A stretch of 33,378 bases of DNA. It comes from an uncultured Eubacteriales bacterium (lineage in GTDB: Bacteria > Bacillota > Clostridia > Peptostreptococcales > Anaerovoracaceae). Of the stretch, positions 18,054 to 33,378 are shown piece after piece; the stretch's first letter is position 1, and every line of letters begins with the position of its first letter. Location: positions 1 to 33,378 of the forward strand of contig CACYLW010000015.1 of assembly GCA_902775345.1 (NCBI GenBank), given 5' to 3'. Made by a program: the position numbers and the translations under genes. The notes below the pieces were generated by a model, which was given only the letters and a program-made list of their open reading frames with translations, made no database searches and was not told the DNA's origin.

Positions 18054-20072
18054 TTATTTTGTAGCTATGAACTTTTTCGCACTCCAGGCTGAGTAATAAT
18101 TCTTACCTTTCAAAGTTTTATATGTACGGATACGAATATAGTACTTCCTGCCGCCAAGCAGTCCTGTTACCTTCTTTGATACAATGTTGCGTCCCTCTAC
18201 GGTAACCAGCGTCTTATTTTTAGTGAACGCTTTGTCAGTTGCCAGCTGTATCTGATATCCGGTGATTCCTGACGTTTCCATCTTCGTTAACTGCTTATTC
18301 CATTTCACCTTTACAGCTTTTGAGGCAGCTGCAGGGGCAAGAAGTGTTGTTCCTTTCGGGTTGATCCTGAACGAAAGCGTTCTGGAGCCGCTGTACTTGC
18401 TGCCCTTCATCTTTACAGTGACCTTATATGTCCCGACGTTCTTCCTTCCCGAAGAATATGTAACGGTATAATCAGTGTTCTCCGTCAGAGTCTTTGTTCC
18501 GCTTTTTACCGTTACAACCGGTGTTCTTGCTTGTCCGTTATATGTGAATGCTTCAGAATCAAGTTTAGCGGTCAGTTTTGGTATCACAGTTTTAACACTG
18601 CAGCCGCATCCGGTGCATTTTTTCTCTATCGCGCCTGCTTCACTAAAAGTTGCTTTTGTAATACCGGAGAACTGATAGTTGTGCTTAACAGGGTTAACGA
18701 CATTCTTCCCCGTATATACACAGAAGCAGTTGATCATCCTTGCAGCACAGTTCACTTTGAGTTCAGGCTGTGAATAGAACGTGCAATCGTTGAACCGGAC
18801 TTCGTTTTTCCCGGAGACACTTATTTTCGGAGTCTTTCCTCCTATCAGGCAATCCGAAAATGCAACACCTGCAGAATCATCGACCATGATCTGTCCATAC
18901 CAGATCTGGCATCCGGTGAAGATATACCCATGGGAACTGTTTTTTATTGCAACAGCGTTTCCGCTGCCTGAGGCCTGTGGATCATTGCAGTCCTCTATAT
19001 GATTGAATGTGCATCCGACTGCAGACCCATGACCATTGTTTCTGCGTTTACCGTCACTATTGTCTATAAGGAATCCCACCTTGCCCTGGAAAGTACAGGA
19101 TGTGAACGTGTTGTTTCCGCCATTGTTGATGCATGCGTAGTAACATCTGTATATTTTTGTTCCGGAAATTTTATGGTATTCCGAATAGTAGTCTATATTT
19201 ATACCTGCTTTGCACTGTTCGATAATACAGTTATTAACAGTTAACGACGAAGTTAAACGGCCGCCGGTATTATGGCAGTATATCCCCGATCCGTCAAAAT
19301 TTTCGATCCACAGATTGTCGATGGTACATGAAGATACCGCAGGCCGGCTTTCTTCTTTTCCGTCAGCATTTGCAATGTAATACAGTCCGCATCTGCTGCC
19401 TGTTTCAGACGAAGACAGATCCGGCGCATTGTATCCGCCGCTTAATGTAAGATTCCTTATAGTGCTTTTCCCGACAGGCTTTACTATATAGTTGCATGAT
19501 GAATCAGACAGTAGTCTTATTACCGTCTTCTTTCCGCACCCTTCCAGTGTAGAACCATACGGCATATCGATGTTTCCGCGCACATAGTATATTCCCGGGC
19601 GCAGACGGCAGTATCCCTTTTCGTCCAAAGCGCTCTGGATCACATCTGTCATATCTGTTTTACCGTTCTCGTCTGCGGTTTCAACATCTACAGTATCGAT
19701 CCAGTATTCACCGGCATCCTCCTCCGGGGTACTGTTCTGAGGGTCTTCTATTTCACCGGGATCACTTGTTCTTACGGATCCATTTTCTTCTTCAGTCTCT
19801 CCCGGCTCCTTGTCTGTAATGTCATCACTGTCGTCCGCATCTTCTCCGTTGTCCTGAACATTCTCATCAGACTCATCAGATTCAGCAGGCTCAGTCATCC
19901 GGTCTCCTGCATTGGGATCCTCCGGGTCTTCTGATTCCTGTTCCTGCATAGTCTCCACGGGCTGCGGATCGTCAGAGGTGACATCATCCCCTGCCCATGC
20001 AAGAGTTCCGGCCTGTATCACCAGAAGTATGGCTATCAATAAAGTAAACGTTCTATTCATCAAATGCTTCAT
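18054..20072 (-). CDS. Exported right-handed beta-helix protein with Fn3 domain
   Basis: 672 residues. A signal peptide (1-27, cleavage after AWA) is followed by an acidic, low-complexity linker rich in Asp, Glu, Ser and Pro (about 28-122). A right-handed parallel beta-helix of the pectate-lyase-like superfamily (about 124-455) has many N-x-x-I/C repeats and cysteines (CTIDNL, CIIEQC, CTFQG, CTFNHI, CLIGG). Then come an H-x-Y...C-T-G-C-G-C module (464-491), an Ig-like domain (about 500-571) and an Fn3-like domain (about 575-672). There is no sorting signal. Members act on or bind polysaccharides; no catalytic residue set is evident, so enzyme activity is uncertain. The ribosome binding site is weak (AAGGA, 15 bases away). 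It is 36 bases behind the glycosyltransferase gene. Confidence 0.82.
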   Translation of the reverse strand: MKHLMNRTFTLLIAILLVIQAGTLAWAGDDVTSDDPQPVETMQEQESEDPEDPNAGDRMTEPAESDESDENVQDNGEDADDSDDITDKEPGETEEENGSVRTSDPGEIEDPQNSTPEEDAGEYWIDTVDVETADENGKTDMTDVIQSALDEKGYCRLRPGIYYVRGNIDMPYGSTLEGCGKKTVIRLLSDSSCNYIVKPVGKSTIRNLTLSGGYNAPDLSSSETGSRCGLYYIANADGKEESRPAVSSCTIDNLWIENFDGSGIYCHNTGGRLTSSLTVNNCIIEQCKAGINIDYYSEYHKISGTKIYRCYYACINNGGNNTFTSCTFQGKVGFLIDNSDGKRRNNGHGSAVGCTFNHIEDCNDPQASGSGNAVAIKNSSHGYIFTGCQIWYGQIMVDDSAGVAFSDCLIGGKTPKISVSGKNEVRFNDCTFYSQPELKVNCAARMINCFCVYTGKNVVNPVKHNYQFSGITKATFSEAGAIEKKCTGCGCSVKTVIPKLTAKLDSEAFTYNGQARTPVVTVKSGTKTLTENTDYTVTYSSGRKNVGTYKVTVKMKGSKYSGSRTLSFRINPKGTTLLAPAAASKAVKVKWNKQLTKMETSGITGYQIQLATDKAFTKNKTLVTVEGRNIVSKKVTGLLGGRKYYIRIRTYKTLKGKNYYSAWSAKKFIATK

Positions 20073-25145: not shown

Positions 25146-26144
25146 TTATACTTTTTCTGTACTTCCGGTCACTTCTTTTATTATCCTGTGGAAATTCCCG
25201 TAAGCGATCTTTGCTAATTCATCCTCGCGCATCCCCCTCTTTCTCAGAATGTCAAAGAACGCAGGGATCTTTGACGGGTCTTCAATTCCCCTTGCAGCCC
25301 CTTCTGAAAAATCCGAACCGGATGTGTCATCCTCATTTTCGATGTAATCACAGAAATCGAAGCCGCATCCCACATGGTCGATACCCATTATGTCTATCAT
25401 GTGCTCGCAGTGATCGGCAAGCCTGTGTATGTCTGCCTTTGCGGAATCACGGTCTACGAATTCCCACCATGTATTGAGCCCGACGCAGCCGTTTGCGTCC
25501 CTGATGGCTCTGAGCTGATCGTCAGTCAGATTGCGCGGGTGGTCGCTCAGCGCCCTGCAGTTGGAATGTGAAGCAATGAACGGTCTTCCGTCCATGATGC
25601 GCGCGATATCCCAGAAACCGGCCTCGTTGAGATGCGAAGTGTCTACTATCATCCTCTTCCCGATCATATGAAGCACTGCCTGCTTTCCAAGGCTGCTCAG
25701 TCCTTCAGTGCTGCCTGATGCCGCACTGTGGCCGAAGCCGTTCTCCTCATTCCACGTCAACATGCCGTGCCTCGCTCCGAAGTCATAATACTCATCGAGT
25801 CTTGAGAGAGTCGGGTCGGCAGAAGCATATGCCATGCCCTCTACACCTATGAAAACATAGAATATCCCTTCTTCTCTTGCTCTCTGCATCTCATCGTAAG
25901 TCTTTACGATGCGGAAGTCACCGGCCTCAGCGATCTCATCTTTCACGCAGCGGAAGAAGTCACGGGTCCTTTTATCAACGTCTTTTGTGCCGTAAGTATC
26001 TACCCAGATAACTAAAACAGAGCCTTCCACCCCGCCCTTTCTGATGTTCTCAAAATGGTGGTTGTGGAAGACGTTTGTTTCTCCCCTCATCCTTTTGCTG
26101 GTCACATCTGCCCAGATGTCGCTGTGAGCGTCAAAGCATTTCAT
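25146..26144 (-). CDS. Membrane dipeptidase family protein (M19)
   Basis: 332 residues, TIM-barrel M19 renal dipeptidase family. Zinc ligands and signature residues can be placed: H7 and D9 (DAHSD), E102 (GVEGMA), H171 (DTSHLNE) and H193 (ASHSNCRAL), followed by HPRNLTDDQ and the late GIDHVGCGFDFCD. Family members cleave dipeptides, including those with a C-terminal D-residue, using two zinc ions. No signal peptide or anchor is present, so it is cytoplasmic. The ATG overlaps the TPR gene stop (ATGA), showing tight translational coupling. A link with the dipeptide epimerase at 1663 is possible in metabolism but not in gene position. Confidence 0.92.
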   Translation of the reverse strand: MKCFDAHSDIWADVTSKRMRGETNVFHNHHFENIRKGGVEGSVLVIWVDTYGTKDVDKRTRDFFRCVKDEIAEAGDFRIVKTYDEMQRAREEGIFYVFIGVEGMAYASADPTLSRLDEYYDFGARHGMLTWNEENGFGHSAASGSTEGLSSLGKQAVLHMIGKRMIVDTSHLNEAGFWDIARIMDGRPFIASHSNCRALSDHPRNLTDDQLRAIRDANGCVGLNTWWEFVDRDSAKADIHRLADHCEHMIDIMGIDHVGCGFDFCDYIENEDDTSGSDFSEGAARGIEDPSKIPAFFDILRKRGMREDELAKIAYGNFHRIIKEVTGSTEKV

Positions 26145-27202
26145 CAGTTCAGCATGTCCGCCTTTTCTTCTTCCAGATTTCTGTTGATGATGCCGATCTT
26201 GTTTCTGTACTTCGCGGCATTGACCGCGTCACCTGTAGCCTCATAGAGGTTTACAAGTTCTTCCATCGCGTCGATATTGCTCGGCGAAAGCCTGAGCACT
26301 TTTCTGAAGGCTTCGATCGCGGCGTCAGGATTTGCGAGCGAGGATTCAGCAATGCCGAGGTAGTACCAGAGCGGCCACCACTCGGAGTATCTGCCCTCCT
26401 TGAAGCGTGCAAGCGTGTCCCTGCCTCCGACGAAATCTCCGCCCATTATCTTGTTGCAGCCGAGCTCGATCTCTACCGGCTCCTCAAGTTCCTCGACACG
26501 CTCCGATATCTCTTCTCTGAGCGAGGCAAGCAGCTGATCGTCCATCTCATGTGTCTCCAGCTCGCTTCCGGCCGAATACTTGAGGAAGTCCTGCCAGGTG
26601 AGCTTTGCCTTGAGATACAGCCCCATGTTCAGATATGCATATCCGAGGAAATAATAACCCATCGCAAAGTCCGGATGGATCATCGTCAGAAGCTCAAATG
26701 TCTCCGAGGATTCCGCCTTGAACAGGCCTGTCTTCTCCTCGTCGCCCATGCCGTCCTGCGCCTCTTCCTCGTAGATCTCCTTGCATACTCTTGCATAAAG
26801 ATAGAGGGCCTCCTTCGACTTTGGTTCTATGCGCAGCGCTCCTCTCAGGAGCATGCACGCGTCTTCGAAGTCTCCCATGTCAGCCGCATGTGCGCCTTCA
26901 GAAACCAGCAGAGGTGCGGCATTATCGCCCGTAGCATGCTTTATGAACTCAACGTACTTCTCTGCGAATACGAAGTACGGGTCGCCGCCTATAACCCTGC
27001 CCATGTTGAGCACGATGTTTCTGAGGTCGGTCTCCCCTCTGTCATCGCTTCCTTCGATACCGACAGGCACTGCAACGCCCGAGAGCATCTCAAGCGCACC
27101 TGTCCTTGAAAGGTAGTCAGGCGAAAGCTCCGCGAACATCATGTTCTGAATTCGCGGAGAGAGGTATTTGCTTATTCTGTCTTCGTTTTTTACTTCACTC
27201 AA
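26144..27202 (-). CDS. TPR-repeat protein of unknown function
   Basis: 352 residues, helical throughout. Several TPR-like units are visible at about 98-131 (DMGDFEDACMLLRGALRIEP), 178-210 (GYAYLNMGLYLKAKLTWQDF) and 275-345 (GIAESSLANPDAAIEAFRKV). There is no signal peptide or membrane helix. TPR proteins usually serve as protein-binding scaffolds. The start is TTG (27202-27200), overlapping the TGA stop of the upstream radical SAM-like gene as TTGA; no in-frame ATG occurs before residue 21 and there is only a weak ribosome binding site, so it depends on coupling. Its own stop overlaps the M19 dipeptidase start. Confidence 0.82.
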   Translation of the reverse strand: MSEVKNEDRISKYLSPRIQNMMFAELSPDYLSRTGALEMLSGVAVPVGIEGSDDRGETDLRNIVLNMGRVIGGDPYFVFAEKYVEFIKHATGDNAAPLLVSEGAHAADMGDFEDACMLLRGALRIEPKSKEALYLYARVCKEIYEEEAQDGMGDEEKTGLFKAESSETFELLTMIHPDFAMGYYFLGYAYLNMGLYLKAKLTWQDFLKYSAGSELETHEMDDQLLASLREEISERVEELEEPVEIELGCNKIMGGDFVGGRDTLARFKEGRYSEWWPLWYYLGIAESSLANPDAAIEAFRKVLRLSPSNIDAMEELVNLYEATGDAVNAAKYRNKIGIINRNLEEEKADMLN

Positions 27203-28719
27203 TCGAGGTCCCAGCCTTTTCTGTCGAATTTTTTCATCGCGTCTTCACCGGTCATCGTTTCGAGATCCGCGTAAATGACGTCTTTCAGGATTTCGTGCTT
27301 CACAGGGTCTGCAAGATCATCATAAAGACCGGCCGTGTAAGCATAAAGGATCCTGGCAAGATGCTCTTTTTTGCGGGTCTTTCCGGCAAGATCGTTTCTT
27401 GTGATATATCCCGTAAGTCTGCTGAAGAGATCGTAAGGCTTGAGGCCCGTATCATTCAGGATACGCGGGATAGACTTCCTGAATCCGCCGTCTCCGATGA
27501 AACTTTCAACGGTGCGCGAGAACGCTCTCAAGCGCAGAAGCTCATCAGACGTCATGTTTCCTGTCGCGATGACTTCATAAGGAGCTTCATCAGCATAAAC
27601 ATAGCCGTATTTGTGCGCGTTAGCTCTGAGCGCCGTGCCCTTGCTCATGAAGAGGCTGTCTATGTGAAGAGGCATGCCTTCTGCCATGCCGTATGCCTTG
27701 TTGAATGAACGGGCAAACATCGCCTCTGTCTCAAGCGGCAGACCTGCCTTTATATGGATCTCCGTTCTCACATTCCCGCTCTGGAGCAGCTTAGTGATGT
27801 TGTACATGAGGCGGTAGATATTCTCGCCCCTGCCGCAGGCATCAAGCACTTCAGCATTGGTGCTCACCAGATCGATGTTGAATATGATCTGACCTTCTCT
27901 GGCCTCGGAGAGGAGCCTGAGCATTTCTTCATCAAGCTCTTCACCGTCGATATTGAATTCGAACGATGTGATCCCGTTGTCGTTGTTGATGATGTATTCG
28001 AAAATCCTGTATGCTCTCTCGCTGTTGTAGTTGAACCATCTGTCGAGGAAGACGACGCGTTCGACTTCGTTTGCAAGGAAGTATCTCAGCTCCGTGCATA
28101 CTCTGCTGAGGCTGAGCGACCTCACCCTGGCGTTAGGCAGGTATTGCGAATAAACGGTTCTGTCGGATGTGCCCCTGATAGACTCGTAATACACTGTACC
28201 CTTTCCTGCCTCGAATCTTTCGTAAGGGAAAGGCAGTGATTCCATGTCGACAGGAGCGTCGTACGGATTGACTACCACCTGATCGCTCTCTCTGTATGCC
28301 AGTCCGGCTATGTTCTCAAAGTCAAACTCATAGTCGAGCACTGACTTGAGGAAGTTGAAGAGCACGCTCTCGCCCTCGCCTCTTATTACATAGTCGACTG
28401 CTTCATTCTGCTTCATGAATGAGCGTGTCTCAAAGGACACTTCCATTCCGCCGAATATAATGGCAATGCTCGGGATGGCCTTTTTGACCATGTCAGCAAC
28501 ACGAAGCAGCTGCCTTATATTGCCGCTGTTCGCATGAAAGTAAACTATGTTGTACTGACCCGTCGCGATGTTCTCAAAGATGTCAGTATAAAGCTCGTTT
28601 CTCCCGAATGTCTTCAGCTGTACGTCCACCGGAGCGTCGGTTATGACACTGTAAATCGATTTGAGACAAAGATCAGTCTTCTTGCAGTCACTTTTGATTG
28701 TTGTTAACAATAATTTCAT
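27199..28719 (-). CDS. B12-binding radical SAM/DUF4080 homologue lacking the cluster cysteines
   Basis: 506 residues. The N-terminal Rossmann-like B12-binding type domain (about 1-135, with IIFGGMEVSF and YVIRGEGE), the central radical SAM barrel (about 172-385) and the C-terminal DUF4080-type region (about 380-500, AHKYGYVYADEAPYEV) follow the usual order and length. Where active members have G-C-x3-C-x2-C, this one reads G-T184-S-D-R-T188-V-Y-S191 with the same spacing; all three [4Fe-4S] ligands are replaced. The codons are ACA, ACC and TCG, so this is not a simple sequencing error. The frame is otherwise intact, including VVFLDRWFN and the GLPLE segment. It cannot hold the standard cluster and is probably a non-catalytic paralogue. 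The ATG has GGGG nine bases upstream. Confidence 0.85.
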   Translation of the reverse strand: MKLLLTTIKSDCKKTDLCLKSIYSVITDAPVDVQLKTFGRNELYTDIFENIATGQYNIVYFHANSGNIRQLLRVADMVKKAIPSIAIIFGGMEVSFETRSFMKQNEAVDYVIRGEGESVLFNFLKSVLDYEFDFENIAGLAYRESDQVVVNPYDAPVDMESLPFPYERFEAGKGTVYYESIRGTSDRTVYSQYLPNARVRSLSLSRVCTELRYFLANEVERVVFLDRWFNYNSERAYRIFEYIINNDNGITSFEFNIDGEELDEEMLRLLSEAREGQIIFNIDLVSTNAEVLDACGRGENIYRLMYNITKLLQSGNVRTEIHIKAGLPLETEAMFARSFNKAYGMAEGMPLHIDSLFMSKGTALRANAHKYGYVYADEAPYEVIATGNMTSDELLRLRAFSRTVESFIGDGGFRKSIPRILNDTGLKPYDLFSRLTGYITRNDLAGKTRKKEHLARILYAYTAGLYDDLADPVKHEILKDVIYADLETMTGEDAMKKFDRKGWDLD

Positions 28720-28762
28720 ATCAGTACACCCCGCTCATAAATCATGTCACAGGTAATCAGGA

Positions 28763-30490
28763 TTACATCCTTTCAGGTGCTGCTATGCCAAGCAGGCTCA
28801 GACAGTTTGCAATTACTGTCTTTGACGCCTTTACGAGAGCCAGTTTCGCGTTTCTTTCGGTTTCATCGTCGACCAGGATGTGCTCGTCATGATAGAACTT
28901 GTTGAATGACTGCGCTATATCTACCAGATGGCGTGTCACGATGGACGGCTCATATTTTTCGGAAGCCTCTATCACGACCTCCGGTACCCTGTAAATGAGC
29001 TTGGCAAGAGTGTATGCGCTGTCACTTCTGAGATATCCGGGATCGAAGCTGCCGAGTTCACCGACATTGACGCCGGCTGCCTCAGCCTTGCGGAGAACGC
29101 TCGATGCTCTTGCGTGCGTGTACTGCACGTAAGGACCTGTCTCTCCGTCAAAGTTGAGGACCTTATCCCATGAGAACACGTAATCCTTGATCTTGTTGTT
29201 TGAGAGTTCCTGGAAGATAACGGCTCCGATGCCGACTTCCTTCGAGACCTGCTCTATGTCTACACCCTGCGCATCCTTGTCGCGCATGATCTCTGCAGTC
29301 TTCGCAACCGCGGTGTTGAGAACGTCTTCGAGGAAGACGACCCTTCCCTCACGCGTCGACATCATCTTGATGTCGTCTCCGTCGGAGAGGCTTACCAGCC
29401 CGAACGGAACGTGGATGCAGTCTTTCTCCCACTCGTATCCCATGAGCTGAAGGACTTTCTTCCACTGCTTGAAGTGGAGGTTCTGCTGCGAAGCAACTAC
29501 ATAGATGCACTTGTAAAAGTCGTAATGCTCCTTGCGGTATACGGCTGCCGCGATGTCTCTCGTTACATAGAGGCTTGAGCCGTCGGATTTAGTGATCATG
29601 GCCGCGCCGAGTCCGTATGGCTCGAGATCTACGATCTGAGCGCCCTGGGATTCGACCAGAAGGCCCTTGTCCTTTAGTTCCTGAATGAATCTCGGCATCT
29701 TGTCGGAGTAGAAACTCTCGCCTGCATAGGAGTCGAATGTGATCCCAAGCATGTCGTAAACGCGGTTGAACTCTTCAAGGCTCAGTGTTCTGAACTTCTC
29801 CCAGAGTTCGAGCTCGGCAGGCTCACCTGCTTCAAGCCTTACGAATGTCTCCCTGGCTTCGTCTTCGAGCTCAGGATGTTCCTTTGCCTCTTCGTGGAAT
29901 CTTGTGTAATAGCCGAGGAGAGCCTTTATAGGCTCCTTTGCGAGTTCCTCTTCACTGCCCCACTTGCGGTAAGCAACGATCATCTTGCCGAACTGCGTGC
30001 CGTAATCGCCGAGGTGGTTGATACGTACCACATCGAAGCCTACAGCATCATAAAGCTTGTAGAGCGCGTTTCCTATGACCGTGCTCCTGATATGCCCGAT
30101 GTGGAAAGGCTTCGCTATATTCGGGGAAGAGTACTCCACTATGACCTTGCGACCCTCTCCTACGTTCGATCTGCCGTATGCCGGACCAAGCTTGCTTACT
30201 TCGGCAACGACCTCGCCTGCGAAATACGCTCTGTCGATGAAGAAGTTGACATAGGCATTTACGTTCTCGACCTTTGCAAATGCTTCAGCATCGCCTGCCT
30301 TGGCGGCGATGTCCGCAGCGATCAGCTGCGGTGCCTTGCGAAGTGCCTTCGCAAGCCTGAAGCATGGAAACGCGTAGTCTCCCATCTTCTCGTCGGCAGG
30401 GATCTCGATCATGTTCATGATCTCATCCTTAGTCAGCCCGAGTTCTTCGCTGTAAATCGAATCTGCTATAAGTTCCTTGAAATCTGTCAT
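28763..30490 (-). CDS. argS: Arginyl-tRNA synthetase
   Basis: 575 residues. Class I synthetase for arginine. The N-terminal Add-1-like domain (about 1-95) is followed by the catalytic core with SSPNIAKPFHIGH (HIGH at 130-133), the INHLGDYGTQFG segment (158-168) and the second signature M377-S-T-R (KMSKS equivalent). The C-terminal helical anticodon-binding domain is marked by VQYTHAR and the closing LLGIAAPERM. The length is normal. The ATG at 30490 lies two bases after the DUF523 stop and has only a weak GGAAAA site, so coupling is likely. No T-box is possible here because there is no leader. Confidence 0.96.
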   Translation of the reverse strand: MTDFKELIADSIYSEELGLTKDEIMNMIEIPADEKMGDYAFPCFRLAKALRKAPQLIAADIAAKAGDAEAFAKVENVNAYVNFFIDRAYFAGEVVAEVSKLGPAYGRSNVGEGRKVIVEYSSPNIAKPFHIGHIRSTVIGNALYKLYDAVGFDVVRINHLGDYGTQFGKMIVAYRKWGSEEELAKEPIKALLGYYTRFHEEAKEHPELEDEARETFVRLEAGEPAELELWEKFRTLSLEEFNRVYDMLGITFDSYAGESFYSDKMPRFIQELKDKGLLVESQGAQIVDLEPYGLGAAMITKSDGSSLYVTRDIAAAVYRKEHYDFYKCIYVVASQQNLHFKQWKKVLQLMGYEWEKDCIHVPFGLVSLSDGDDIKMMSTREGRVVFLEDVLNTAVAKTAEIMRDKDAQGVDIEQVSKEVGIGAVIFQELSNNKIKDYVFSWDKVLNFDGETGPYVQYTHARASSVLRKAEAAGVNVGELGSFDPGYLRSDSAYTLAKLIYRVPEVVIEASEKYEPSIVTRHLVDIAQSFNKFYHDEHILVDDETERNAKLALVKASKTVIANCLSLLGIAAPERM

Positions 30491-30492
30491 TT

Positions 30493-31023
30493 TTATTTTC
30501 CAAACACTTTCATGAAATGATTTTCGTCGCAGATCCTGAAATCATCTGCGAACACTCTGTTTTCAGCTTCTATTGCCGCATTTGCCCGCTCTTCAAGGCA
30601 GGCGTCTATGAGCTTGTCTGTGAACATCCCGTTTCCGCCTGTCAGTTTTCCGCTGAATGTTCCGTCATAGATAGCGCCTGATCCGCATGAAGGGCTGTTT
30701 GCCTTGAGGATCGCTCCTTCTATCTTACATGTGCCGTGCTTTCTTGATCCCTGCTCAACGAGCACGGAATTCAGCGAAAGCTGAGCGCCTTCGTCGAACG
30801 CTCTTGTGAGGTCGTTTCCGGACTTATCAAGAACTTTGAAGTACTCATCGTCTACCGGAACGATCTCAGCCGGTTCGCGCGGTACAGACAATCCTGCGGC
30901 TGTCTCAGGGCATATTGTAACATAATCATGAGTCCTGCAGAACTCTATGACATCATCATTTTTATTATTGCCGCCATTGTATTTGCAGTCAAATCCAAGG
31001 AGGCATCTGCTTACAATAAACAT
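30493..31023 (-). CDS. DUF523 family protein
   Basis: 176 residues. DUF523 signature elements are all visible: an N-terminal SRCLLGFDCKYNGG (C7 and C13), CPETAAGLSVPREPAEI (C38), and KANSPSCGSGAIYDGTFSG with C113. Conserved cysteines suggest metal or cluster binding; the function of the family is not established. The ATG at 31023 lies 38 bases after mutS2, with a modest AGAGAG site. It is transcribed with argS. Confidence 0.92.
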   Translation of the reverse strand: MFIVSRCLLGFDCKYNGGNNKNDDVIEFCRTHDYVTICPETAAGLSVPREPAEIVPVDDEYFKVLDKSGNDLTRAFDEGAQLSLNSVLVEQGSRKHGTCKIEGAILKANSPSCGSGAIYDGTFSGKLTGGNGMFTDKLIDACLEERANAAIEAENRVFADDFRICDENHFMKVFGK

Positions 31024-31061: not shown

Positions 31062-33378
31062 CTATGTGCGGTCTACCAGTGTGACTATGGTATTACCTTC
31101 TCCGCCCTGATCATACGGCGCGGATTTATACGACTCAACGTGCTTATTGCGTCTGAGTTCGGCTCTCAGTCCCTTCCTGAGTATTCCGGAGCCTCTGCCG
31201 TGTATTATATTGACGGTCTTGAGACCGGCCAGGAATGCATCGTCGATGTATTTGTTCATCCTGTCCGTTGCATCATCGAGATTCATGCCTATAAGGTTGA
31301 TCTCAGTGCTCACGTTTTTTGTCTTGCCAAACGACATGTTGCCGTACTTTGCCTTTTTCTTTTCCTTGTTGCCCTGCGGCTCAGACTCGGCGATAACGAC
31401 ATCCTTCACATTGACGGTCATGTGTATCGATCCCAGCCTGATACGGAAGTTGCCCCTTGAATCCGGCAGGCTCTCAACATCACCCGTCTGATCGAGTTTC
31501 GTGTACTTGACTCTCATGCCGACCTTGAGATCCTCAGGATCCGGCATCTTGCCCGTCTGTATGGTCTCGACCTTAGGTGCCTCCGCAGGCTTCAGCGCGG
31601 ATTCTGCCTGCCTGAGCTTTCTGCGGCTTTCGGCTGCTCCTCCGGCTATATGGCCTTCGTTGAACCCGGCGTTCTTCTTTTTGTGCTGGATGTCTCTTAA
31701 TTCGCTGGCGATCTCATCGATCGTCCCCTGAGCGTCTCTCAGCATCACGCCGGCCTTCTTGCGGGCATCTTCAACGATCTTAGCCGCCTCGGCCCTCGCT
31801 TTGGCAAGTTCCTTTTCGGCTTCGCTCATTGCCTCCTGAGCAGCTTCCCTTTCCCTGCCGGCCTCAGCCAGTCTCGCTTCAGCTGCCGCCTGGTCGGCTT
31901 CGACCCGGCTCACTGCCTCTTCGAACTCAAGCTGCTCCTCGCCCATGAGCTCCGCCGCCCGCTCGATTATCGATTTATCGAGTCCGAGCTTCTCGGAGAT
32001 CTCGAAAGCGTTGGATTTGCCCGGAAGTCCGACTCTCAGCTTATAAGTCGGCGAAAGTGTCTCCACGTTGAATTCCATGGAAGCATTCTCTACACCCGGA
32101 GTTGAAAGAGCGTATTTTTTGAGCTCCGTATAGTGCGTAGTGGCTGCAACGAGAGCCCCGGCTTCTTTCAGCCTCTCTAGCTCCGCGATACCGAGCGCGG
32201 CGCCTTCAAGAGGATCCGTGCCGGCTCCCAGCTCATCCAGAAGCACCAGGCTTCCCTCTCCGGCGTTTCTGAAGATCTCAATGATGTTCTTCATGTGCGA
32301 TGAGAAGGTGCTCAGGCTCTGCTCGATGCTCTGTTCGTCGCCTATGTCAGCGAATATCTCCTTAAGAACAGGCAGGCTTGTCCTTTCGTCCGCAGGAACA
32401 TGCAGACCGCTTTGTGCCATAAGGCACAGCAGTCCGATTGTCTTGAGAGTTACAGTCTTGCCGCCCGTGTTAGGTCCTGTTATAAGCAGGGTCGTCCAGT
32501 CGCGTCCCAGCTCTATGTTGGTAGGGACCACCTTATCTGCCGGAATAAGCGGATGGCGCCCTGTCTTTATATCAATTATATTTTCCCCGTTCAGATGCGG
32601 TTCTGCACCGTCCATCATAACCGAAAGCCTGCCCTTGGCATTGATGAAGTCAAGTTCGGCCATGAGTCTCTGATCGTTCAGAAGGCTCTGATGGTGCTCA
32701 CCGACTCTGCTGCTGAAGAGCTCGAGTATCCTTGTGATCTCGGCCTGCTCGTCAAGCTCCAGCTGCCTGAGCTCGTTATTGAGTGTGACCACCGCCTGCG
32801 GTTCCACGAAAAGAGTGGCTCCCGTTGACGACTGGTCATGCACCATGCCCGGGAACAGACTTATATACTCTCTCTTGACCGGGATGACATACCTTCCGTT
32901 GCGCATGGTCACAATGGCGTCCTGAAGGTGTGCTTTTGCCGAGGACGAGCTGACCATCTTCTGCAGACGCGACTTGATCAGGTCGTTCTTGTTGCGCATG
33001 TCACGCCTGATCGACTTCAGCACAGGAGACGCGTTGTCAGACATCTCATCTTCGCTGATAATGGCGTCGTAGATATCATGCTCCAGCTTTACCTGCGGGT
33101 CGAGAAGGCTTGCTATCTCGGATATGACTTTCAGGCCTTCAGGCATGTCTTCCCTGAGGAAAGTCTTTACGGTCCTTGACGAAGCTATGCTCATGCGCAC
33201 CTGCAGCAGCTCTCTCATGCTGAGGCATCTTCCCCTTCTCGCCATCGAAACGATGCTGCTGATGTCTCCGATCTCTCCGACCGGAATGCTTCCCTTATGA
33301 ACAATAACGGAAACCGCTTCAGTAGTTTCCGTTAGTGCATCCTTTGCCATGCGCATATTGGTCATCGGCTCGAGCTGC
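31062..33378 (-). CDS. mutS2: Endonuclease MutS2 (5' end outside window)
   Basis: At least 771 residues; the frame continues upstream past the window edge without a stop, and by comparison with B. subtilis MutS2 about 50 N-terminal residues are missing. Positions here are from the first visible Met at 33365. Core/clamp region about 100-250, Walker A GPNTGGKT (297-304), DEQSIEQSLSTFSSH (343-357), Walker B LVLLDELGAGTDP (373-385), a coiled coil rich in Ala and Glu (about 480-580), a KOW-like segment (about 630-670) and a C-terminal Smr domain with HGRGSG. MutS2 resolves or suppresses recombination and rescues collided ribosomes. The Smr LDLR-type motif reads INLI here. Confidence 0.95.
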   Translation of the reverse strand, partial: QLEPMTNMRMAKDALTETTEAVSVIVHKGSIPVGEIGDISSIVSMARRGRCLSMRELLQVRMSIASSRTVKTFLREDMPEGLKVISEIASLLDPQVKLEHDIYDAIISEDEMSDNASPVLKSIRRDMRNKNDLIKSRLQKMVSSSSAKAHLQDAIVTMRNGRYVIPVKREYISLFPGMVHDQSSTGATLFVEPQAVVTLNNELRQLELDEQAEITRILELFSSRVGEHHQSLLNDQRLMAELDFINAKGRLSVMMDGAEPHLNGENIIDIKTGRHPLIPADKVVPTNIELGRDWTTLLITGPNTGGKTVTLKTIGLLCLMAQSGLHVPADERTSLPVLKEIFADIGDEQSIEQSLSTFSSHMKNIIEIFRNAGEGSLVLLDELGAGTDPLEGAALGIAELERLKEAGALVAATTHYTELKKYALSTPGVENASMEFNVETLSPTYKLRVGLPGKSNAFEISEKLGLDKSIIERAAELMGEEQLEFEEAVSRVEADQAAAEARLAEAGREREAAQEAMSEAEKELAKARAEAAKIVEDARKKAGVMLRDAQGTIDEIASELRDIQHKKKNAGFNEGHIAGGAAESRRKLRQAESALKPAEAPKVETIQTGKMPDPEDLKVGMRVKYTKLDQTGDVESLPDSRGNFRIRLGSIHMTVNVKDVVIAESEPQGNKEKKKAKYGNMSFGKTKNVSTEINLIGMNLDDATDRMNKYIDDAFLAGLKTVNIIHGRGSGILRKGLRAELRRNKHVESYKSAPYDQGGEGNTIVTLVDRT

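Follow-up and report, generated by a model that had tools for sequence, protein, structure and literature searches.

A maintained, cysteine-less relative of cobalamin-dependent radical SAM enzymes that may act without radical chemistry beside a TPR protein

The locus and its DUF4080-family protein

The window, by which we mean the whole 33,378-nucleotide stretch of DNA analysed here, comes from an uncultured bacterium of the Anaerovoracaceae and carries a run of genes and features on the minus strand: mutS2 (31062..33365); a gene of the DUF523 (2-thiouracil desulfurase) family (30493..31023), which is syntenic in relatives and sometimes absent; argS (28763..30490); a gap of 43 bases (28720..28762); a gene for a 506-aa protein with B12-binding, radical SAM and DUF4080 domains (27199..28719); and a gene for a 352-aa TPR protein (26144..27202). 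The first three were identified by Pfam matches and locus comparison, mutS2 and argS serving as syntenic anchors. The TPR gene, a conserved neighbour by Pfam and by orthologue and locus counts, starts with a TTG codon that overlaps the TGA stop of the DUF4080 gene, four bases being common to both frames; this overlap suggests that the two genes may be coupled. Elsewhere in the window, a 672-aa protein (18054-20072) has weak matches to MBG and fn3, most of them under the Pfam cut-offs, and is possibly a surface protein.

The 506-aa reading frame has an ATG start and no internal stops. Its product displays an N-terminal B12-binding domain (PF02310; 7.9e-11, 42.3 bits against a cut-off of 32.1), a Radical_SAM match (8.1e-9, residues 198-336) and a C-terminal DUF4080 domain (PF13311; 1.6e-16, 61.5 bits against a cut-off of 22.9), the last of which, together with the argS and TPR neighbours, places it in the DUF4080 family. 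The Radical_SAM match begins past the loop that in functional radical SAM enzymes bears the CX3CX2C triad. In the window protein this former cluster loop (28147..28170, minus strand) reads RG-T184-SDR-T188-VY-S191, i.e. T/T/S when aligned with 80 proteins of the family that have all three cysteines (C/C/C). The codons concerned are ACA for T184 (28170-28168), ACC for T188 (28158-28156) and TCG for S191 (28149-28147), which differ from TGT/TGC by three, two and two bases, respectively. The original prediction, made from this sequence, had described the same domain layout and the same loop at these positions, with at least two base changes separating each codon from cysteine, and is borne out on each point.

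The predicted structure of the window protein (mean pLDDT 85.1, falling to 66 at residues 181-200, which include the loop, and below 50 at 374-385) adopts the radical SAM barrel fold: its best PDB match by Foldseek is CysS (9n1b, TM 0.76), with TokK (7kdy) at TM 0.70, both over the full length, and further matches are to OxsB, AprD4 and MiaB. In the source genome (G000; a 2.25-Mb assembly of 26 contigs, 90.5% complete) there is a single DUF4080 match and a single protein match; hence the search for a cysteine-bearing paralogue that had been proposed as a check found none in this assembly.

Phyletic spread and gene neighbourhood of the cysteine-poor clade

The loci we gathered (191) yielded 135 distinct DUF4080 proteins: 80 of these are C/C/C and 55 lack the full triad. 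The latter share at least 44% identity with the window protein and the former at most 39%; thus, while the groups used below for comparing columns were split by the triad itself, this split is the same as that by identity. None of the 55 has all three cysteines of the loop: Cys3 is absent from every one, Cys2 from 42 (kept in 13) and Cys1 from 51 (kept in 4). In a tree computed without the three cysteine columns a single branch, with an SH-aLRT of 100, separates them from all others, and the minimum numbers of changes on the tree are one for Cys3, three for Cys2 and four for Cys1, as obtained by a quick method on 94 rows (39 of these drawn from the 77 outgroup rows that remained) for which the program warns of long branches. 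Three fragments shorter than 480 aa were left out of the trees and of the dN/dS estimates, and one clade protein (L124) is unreadable over its first ~96 residues. Hence, Cys3 is gone throughout the clade and Cys1 and Cys2 were lost piecemeal.

All 80 proteins of the bacterial family read outside the clade are C/C/C and occupy the same argS-DUF4080-TPR locus; the loop was read in 80 of the 88 C/C/C-lineage genomes of the family sample, the unread ones being G013, G094, G099, G106, G107, G122, G140 and G190. Homologues with the same neighbours that all kept the three cysteines had been named as evidence against a maintained pseudoenzyme: this holds for the relatives outside the clade, but no member within it keeps all three, and the cysteine-poor state is, as proposed, a feature of a clade. 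In the genus of the window organism the gene is carried by 44 of 47 genomes, and by 18 of 18 at high quality; 40 of the 44 carriers have no cysteine of the triad and four have one. This is not an accident of a single genome, and we rejected chance or an assembly artefact as the explanation. In a sample of the order, DUF4080 relatives were found as protein matches in 292 of 393 genomes; among the matches listed, the best 35 rows, with at least 45% identity, all come from the window organism's own family, the next have at most 39%, and 20 of 20 copies chosen from other families are C/C/C. One genome of the clade (G091, a MAG 83% complete) shows two loci of the mutS2/argS/DUF4080/TPR type (L101 and L102), both cysteine-poor with loops N/C/S and C/C/A, for which a mixed bin is likelier than a duplication.

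The TPR gene is, as anticipated, a constant neighbour, present at the fetched locus of all 55 clade proteins. Its orthologue occurs in 182 of the 197 genomes of the family (107 of 109 at high quality), including 84 of the 94 that lack DUF4080, and is in this sense independent of the latter. The TPR model has a pTM of 0.56 and its Foldseek matches are generic TPR proteins; a stretch preceding the repeats (~residues 8-48, NEDRISKYL...VPV) is conserved, also beside the C/C/C relatives. The M19 gene, by contrast with what was suggested for it, is no part of a conserved unit: among 34 loci it directly follows the TPR gene in seven, lies 1.4-1.6 kb beyond it in seven and has no match within the available flanking sequence in 20. 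It follows the TPR gene in near relatives only, and we rejected it as a partner.

In the C/C/C relatives displayed, the gene order is mutS2 - (DUF523) - argS - small radical SAM - DUF4080 - TPR, where the small radical SAM protein has about 290 aa (314 in one copy). In the clade, argS immediately precedes DUF4080, and the 43-base gap of the window lies where these relatives have the small gene. In the sample of 197 genomes from the family, the small protein has an orthologue (at least 49% identity) among the matches listed, which reach to about E 1e-49 such that weaker fragments could be hidden, in 84 of 88 genomes of the C/C/C lineage and in none of 15 clade genomes. In three of the four exceptions (G007, G094, G187) DUF4080 stands at a contig end; the fourth is G048, discussed below. 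In the window organism's own genus the orthologue was found in none of 47 genomes, 14 of which have a paralogue at 31-36%. As the clade has one origin, the absence counts as one event, for which reason no use is made of a Fisher test on these genome counts, and any association of the missing small gene with the missing motifs has this event and one looser case behind it. Furthermore, the small gene is present in 63 of the 94 family genomes that lack DUF4080, which together with the 84 that keep TPR argues against a simple all-or-none operon. In G004 (C28:1038-2934) the small radical SAM and TPR genes stand side by side with no DUF4080, and the set of genes appears to be modular. Of the 103 carriers that the protein search found among the 197 genomes, a PF13311 search recovered 101; the copies that it missed, in G107 and G122, are N-terminal fragments.

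The looser case is L173, a DUF4080 protein outside the clade (G048:C18, 1123-2637, minus strand) that is C/C/C, with the loop RDCLYTCSYC. In its genome (98% complete) the small radical SAM orthologue is not among the matches listed, argS adjoins DUF4080 and the TPR frame is intact. L173 keeps 10 of 28 key residues, where the other 79 C/C/C proteins keep at least 24; since the 28 sites were chosen because they differ between the groups, low scores in the clade follow by construction, but that of L173 does not. A tree with 19 of the 55 clade rows places it among the outgroups and apart from the clade; its branch is long and the local support is weak. Of the two genomes in its genus one has the gene and the other lacks it. 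With n=2, the pattern suggests that the small gene may disappear in step with an erosion of cobalamin- and SAM-site residues, the cysteines going afterwards; L173 may represent another path, taken independently, towards a pseudoenzyme.

Residue loss, selection and the former ligand sites

Where 85% or more of the C/C/C proteins share a residue, 80% or more of the clade retain it at 68 alignment columns but not at the other 81. The latter include N9, Y12, H14, N16, C60, S62, Y64, W66 and P92 of the cobalamin domain, and K223, T228, H254, E256, E281, G283, Q285, H320, D322, Q352, G354 and K357 of the barrel strands. In the window protein, residues 59-96 of the former cobalamin domain (28432..28545, minus strand) accordingly have Y60, H62, N64, G66 and M92 where the C/C/C alignment has C, S, Y, W and P. 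By pairwise alignment, W66 of a C/C/C orthologue corresponds to TokK W76 and CysS W75, which sit below the cobalt in published accounts (PMC13331322, PMC12846815). Outside the clade 78 of 80 proteins have W at position 66 and two have Y; in the clade W occurs there in none of the 54 readable proteins (one being unreadable), and the G of the window protein sets it apart from TokK and CysS and from its own family, which is as far as this comparison reaches. The same sources report N, R or L below the cobalt in other cobalamin radical SAM enzymes (PMC13331322, PMC12846815), and loss of the tryptophan alone would not exclude cobalamin. However, the joint loss of cobalamin-domain, SAM-site and loop residues makes cobalamin binding unlikely.

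It had been suggested that the protein might still bind corrinoid or SAM while being devoid of radical chemistry, and the predicted fold and the B12-binding domain, still above its Pfam cut-off, would accord with this. We nevertheless regard it as improbable, because the residues of both sites are gone along with the cysteines, including all nine of the cobalamin domain listed above. Moreover, the window-type protein is the only PF02310 match (E 1e-3) in 14 of the 44 genus carriers (7 of 18 among high-quality genus genomes), as against one of 46 C/C/C genomes (G048), and so persists with no other such protein beside it; as the 46 are all of high quality and the 44 are not, this contrast is supporting evidence only, and the window genome itself has three further PF02310 matches. 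Still less credible is a radical SAM enzyme whose cluster is held by other residues. C208 is conserved in 50 of 55 clade proteins, but it is the sole position with cysteine in more than 31, the next being C12 with 31, so that no single site offers three thiolates, and the remaining SAM-site residues are lost as well. A cysteine triplet elsewhere in the fold, which would have spoken against a pseudoenzyme, was looked for across the clade and not found, and we rejected moved cysteines.

The gene shows the marks of purifying selection rather than decay. Pairwise NG86 estimates gave dN/dS of 0.02-0.12 in the 18 clade pairs with a dS estimate (20 tried), 16 of them between 0.03 and 0.08, although in 15 of the 18 dS exceeds 1 and most values are thus saturated. 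The three clade pairs with dS below 1 have dN/dS of 0.050, 0.051 and 0.078, not above the 0.05-0.14 of the six C/C/C pairs that fall under the same dS limit. No clade protein (0/55) has an internal stop; in two genomes flagged for an in-frame TGA the protein merely ends at 504 aa. While the piecemeal loss of Cys1 and Cys2 points to relaxed constraint on the loop and could be taken as a gene on its way out, these low ratios, far from the value near one expected of a decaying gene, and its retention in all 18 high-quality genus genomes with no disrupted copies seen, make decay scarcely tenable; we rejected a pseudogene on the ratios and intact frames, in agreement with the prediction of a maintained protein. 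Catalytic residues lost, with selection and the predicted fold retained, is the pattern of a pseudoenzyme, and the window protein is very probably a maintained homologue unable to perform standard radical SAM chemistry.

The clade has also acquired conserved residues of its own: Y60 (54/55), H62 (51/55) and the above-mentioned C208, as well as N300, Y302, K341 and Y466, each in all 55. On barrel strands 3 and 4 as delimited from the model (residues 251-288; 27856..27969, minus strand) the window protein has E254, N256, N281 and D283 where its C/C/C relatives have H, E, E and G. Position 283 is D in 51 of 55 clade proteins and E in the other four, 46 have N281, 52 have N or D at 256, 43 have E254 and 50 have W, F or Y at 228; 79-80 of 80 C/C/C proteins have G, E, E, H and T at 283, 281, 256, 254 and 228, respectively. 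Strands 5 and 6, in turn, have become variable in the clade at the formerly conserved positions 320, 322, 324, 352, 354 and 357. On the same 69 taxa (50 of the clade, 19 outside), the branch that separates the clade from the rest measures 0.41 in the DUF4080 tree, whereas TPR gives 0.20 and the C-terminal 180 residues of ArgS give 0.21, which indicates extra change on one stem.

A possible history and function

The ancestor would have been a DUF4080-family radical SAM enzyme that depended on cobalamin, encoded at a locus with the gene order argS - small radical SAM - DUF4080 - TPR. Its descendants would have remained in place, and along one stem within the family the small gene, Cys3, the cobalamin-site residues and many strand residues would have been lost, with Cys1 and Cys2 going later and piecemeal while the fold was kept under purifying selection. 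The present protein would then be free of [4Fe-4S], SAM and cobalamin, and its retained role, non-radical, would most likely be that of a folded binding subunit pairing with the product of the overlapping TPR gene, such that a recruitment function of the ancestral complex outlived its chemistry. The loss of the small radical SAM neighbour, the piecemeal loss of cysteines and the newly conserved residues did not figure in the original prediction.

With orthology established by synteny, and with the motif loss, clade-wide retention, selection, predicted fold and constant TPR neighbour observed, we favour, at a probability of about 0.55, the view that what was once a B12 radical SAM enzyme has been retained as a non-radical, non-catalytic partner of the TPR protein: the cluster and B12 residues are lost and the protein is intact beside the same partner gene, and hence it seems to work without radical chemistry. 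Against this stand the TPR genes that occur without DUF4080, the B12-binding domain still recognized by Pfam, and the new polar residues on strands 3-4, which would fit a new ligand site equally well. The last point bears on a more tentative alternative, in which the emptied barrel was refitted with E254, N/D256, N281, D283 and the aromatic residue at 228 as a non-radical enzyme or as a sensor of a metal, cation or small ligand; conserved in the clade and nearly absent from its C/C/C relatives, these residues are what such a site might look like, but the variability of strands 5-6 is unlike a complete active site, and the inward orientation of the side chains is deduced from alternation. Conceivably, then, an enzyme was converted in place to a non-radical ligand-binding or catalytic protein tied to the TPR protein, and extant relatives represent steps on the way to a loop devoid of cysteines. 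Of the pseudo-radical-SAM protein as first proposed, the maintained frame, the cysteine-poor clade and the TPR neighbour stand, whereas corrinoid or SAM binding and the unit with M19 find no support.

The closest counterparts of the window protein are its C/C/C DUF4080 orthologues, which resemble it in domains, length, argS/TPR locus and fold at 29-39% identity, but keep the CX3CX2C motif, the cobalamin-site residues and, in 84 of the 88 genomes sampled, the small radical SAM neighbour. The cobalamin-dependent radical SAM methylases CysS and TokK share its predicted fold over the full length; these, however, bind [4Fe-4S], SAM and cobalamin, with Trp75 and Trp76 under the cobalt (PMC13331322, PMC12846815), and the window protein has neither the cysteines nor the tryptophan. 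Pseudokinases and other pseudoenzymes have likewise lost a motif while keeping the fold, with scaffold or allosteric roles proposed for them (PMC10211241); those of this review belong to another superfamily, and the word 'radical' does not occur in its text. Full-text searches, whose coverage leaves out most subscription journals, found no paper on DUF4080 and, by title or the start of the abstract, none on a radical SAM pseudoenzyme or cysteine-less radical SAM protein.

Assignment of radical SAM proteins goes by fold, and they are presumed to be catalysts; here a clade in gut bacteria keeps the fold while lacking the residues for cluster, cobalamin and SAM, and shows that a Pfam name can mislead. 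As intermediate stages are still living and a second radical SAM gene was lost on the same branch, the order in which a metalloenzyme is switched off becomes testable. Through the clade one might also approach an as yet uncharacterised system of radical SAM and TPR proteins, whose DUF4080 component has relatives in 292 of the 393 genomes sampled from the order.
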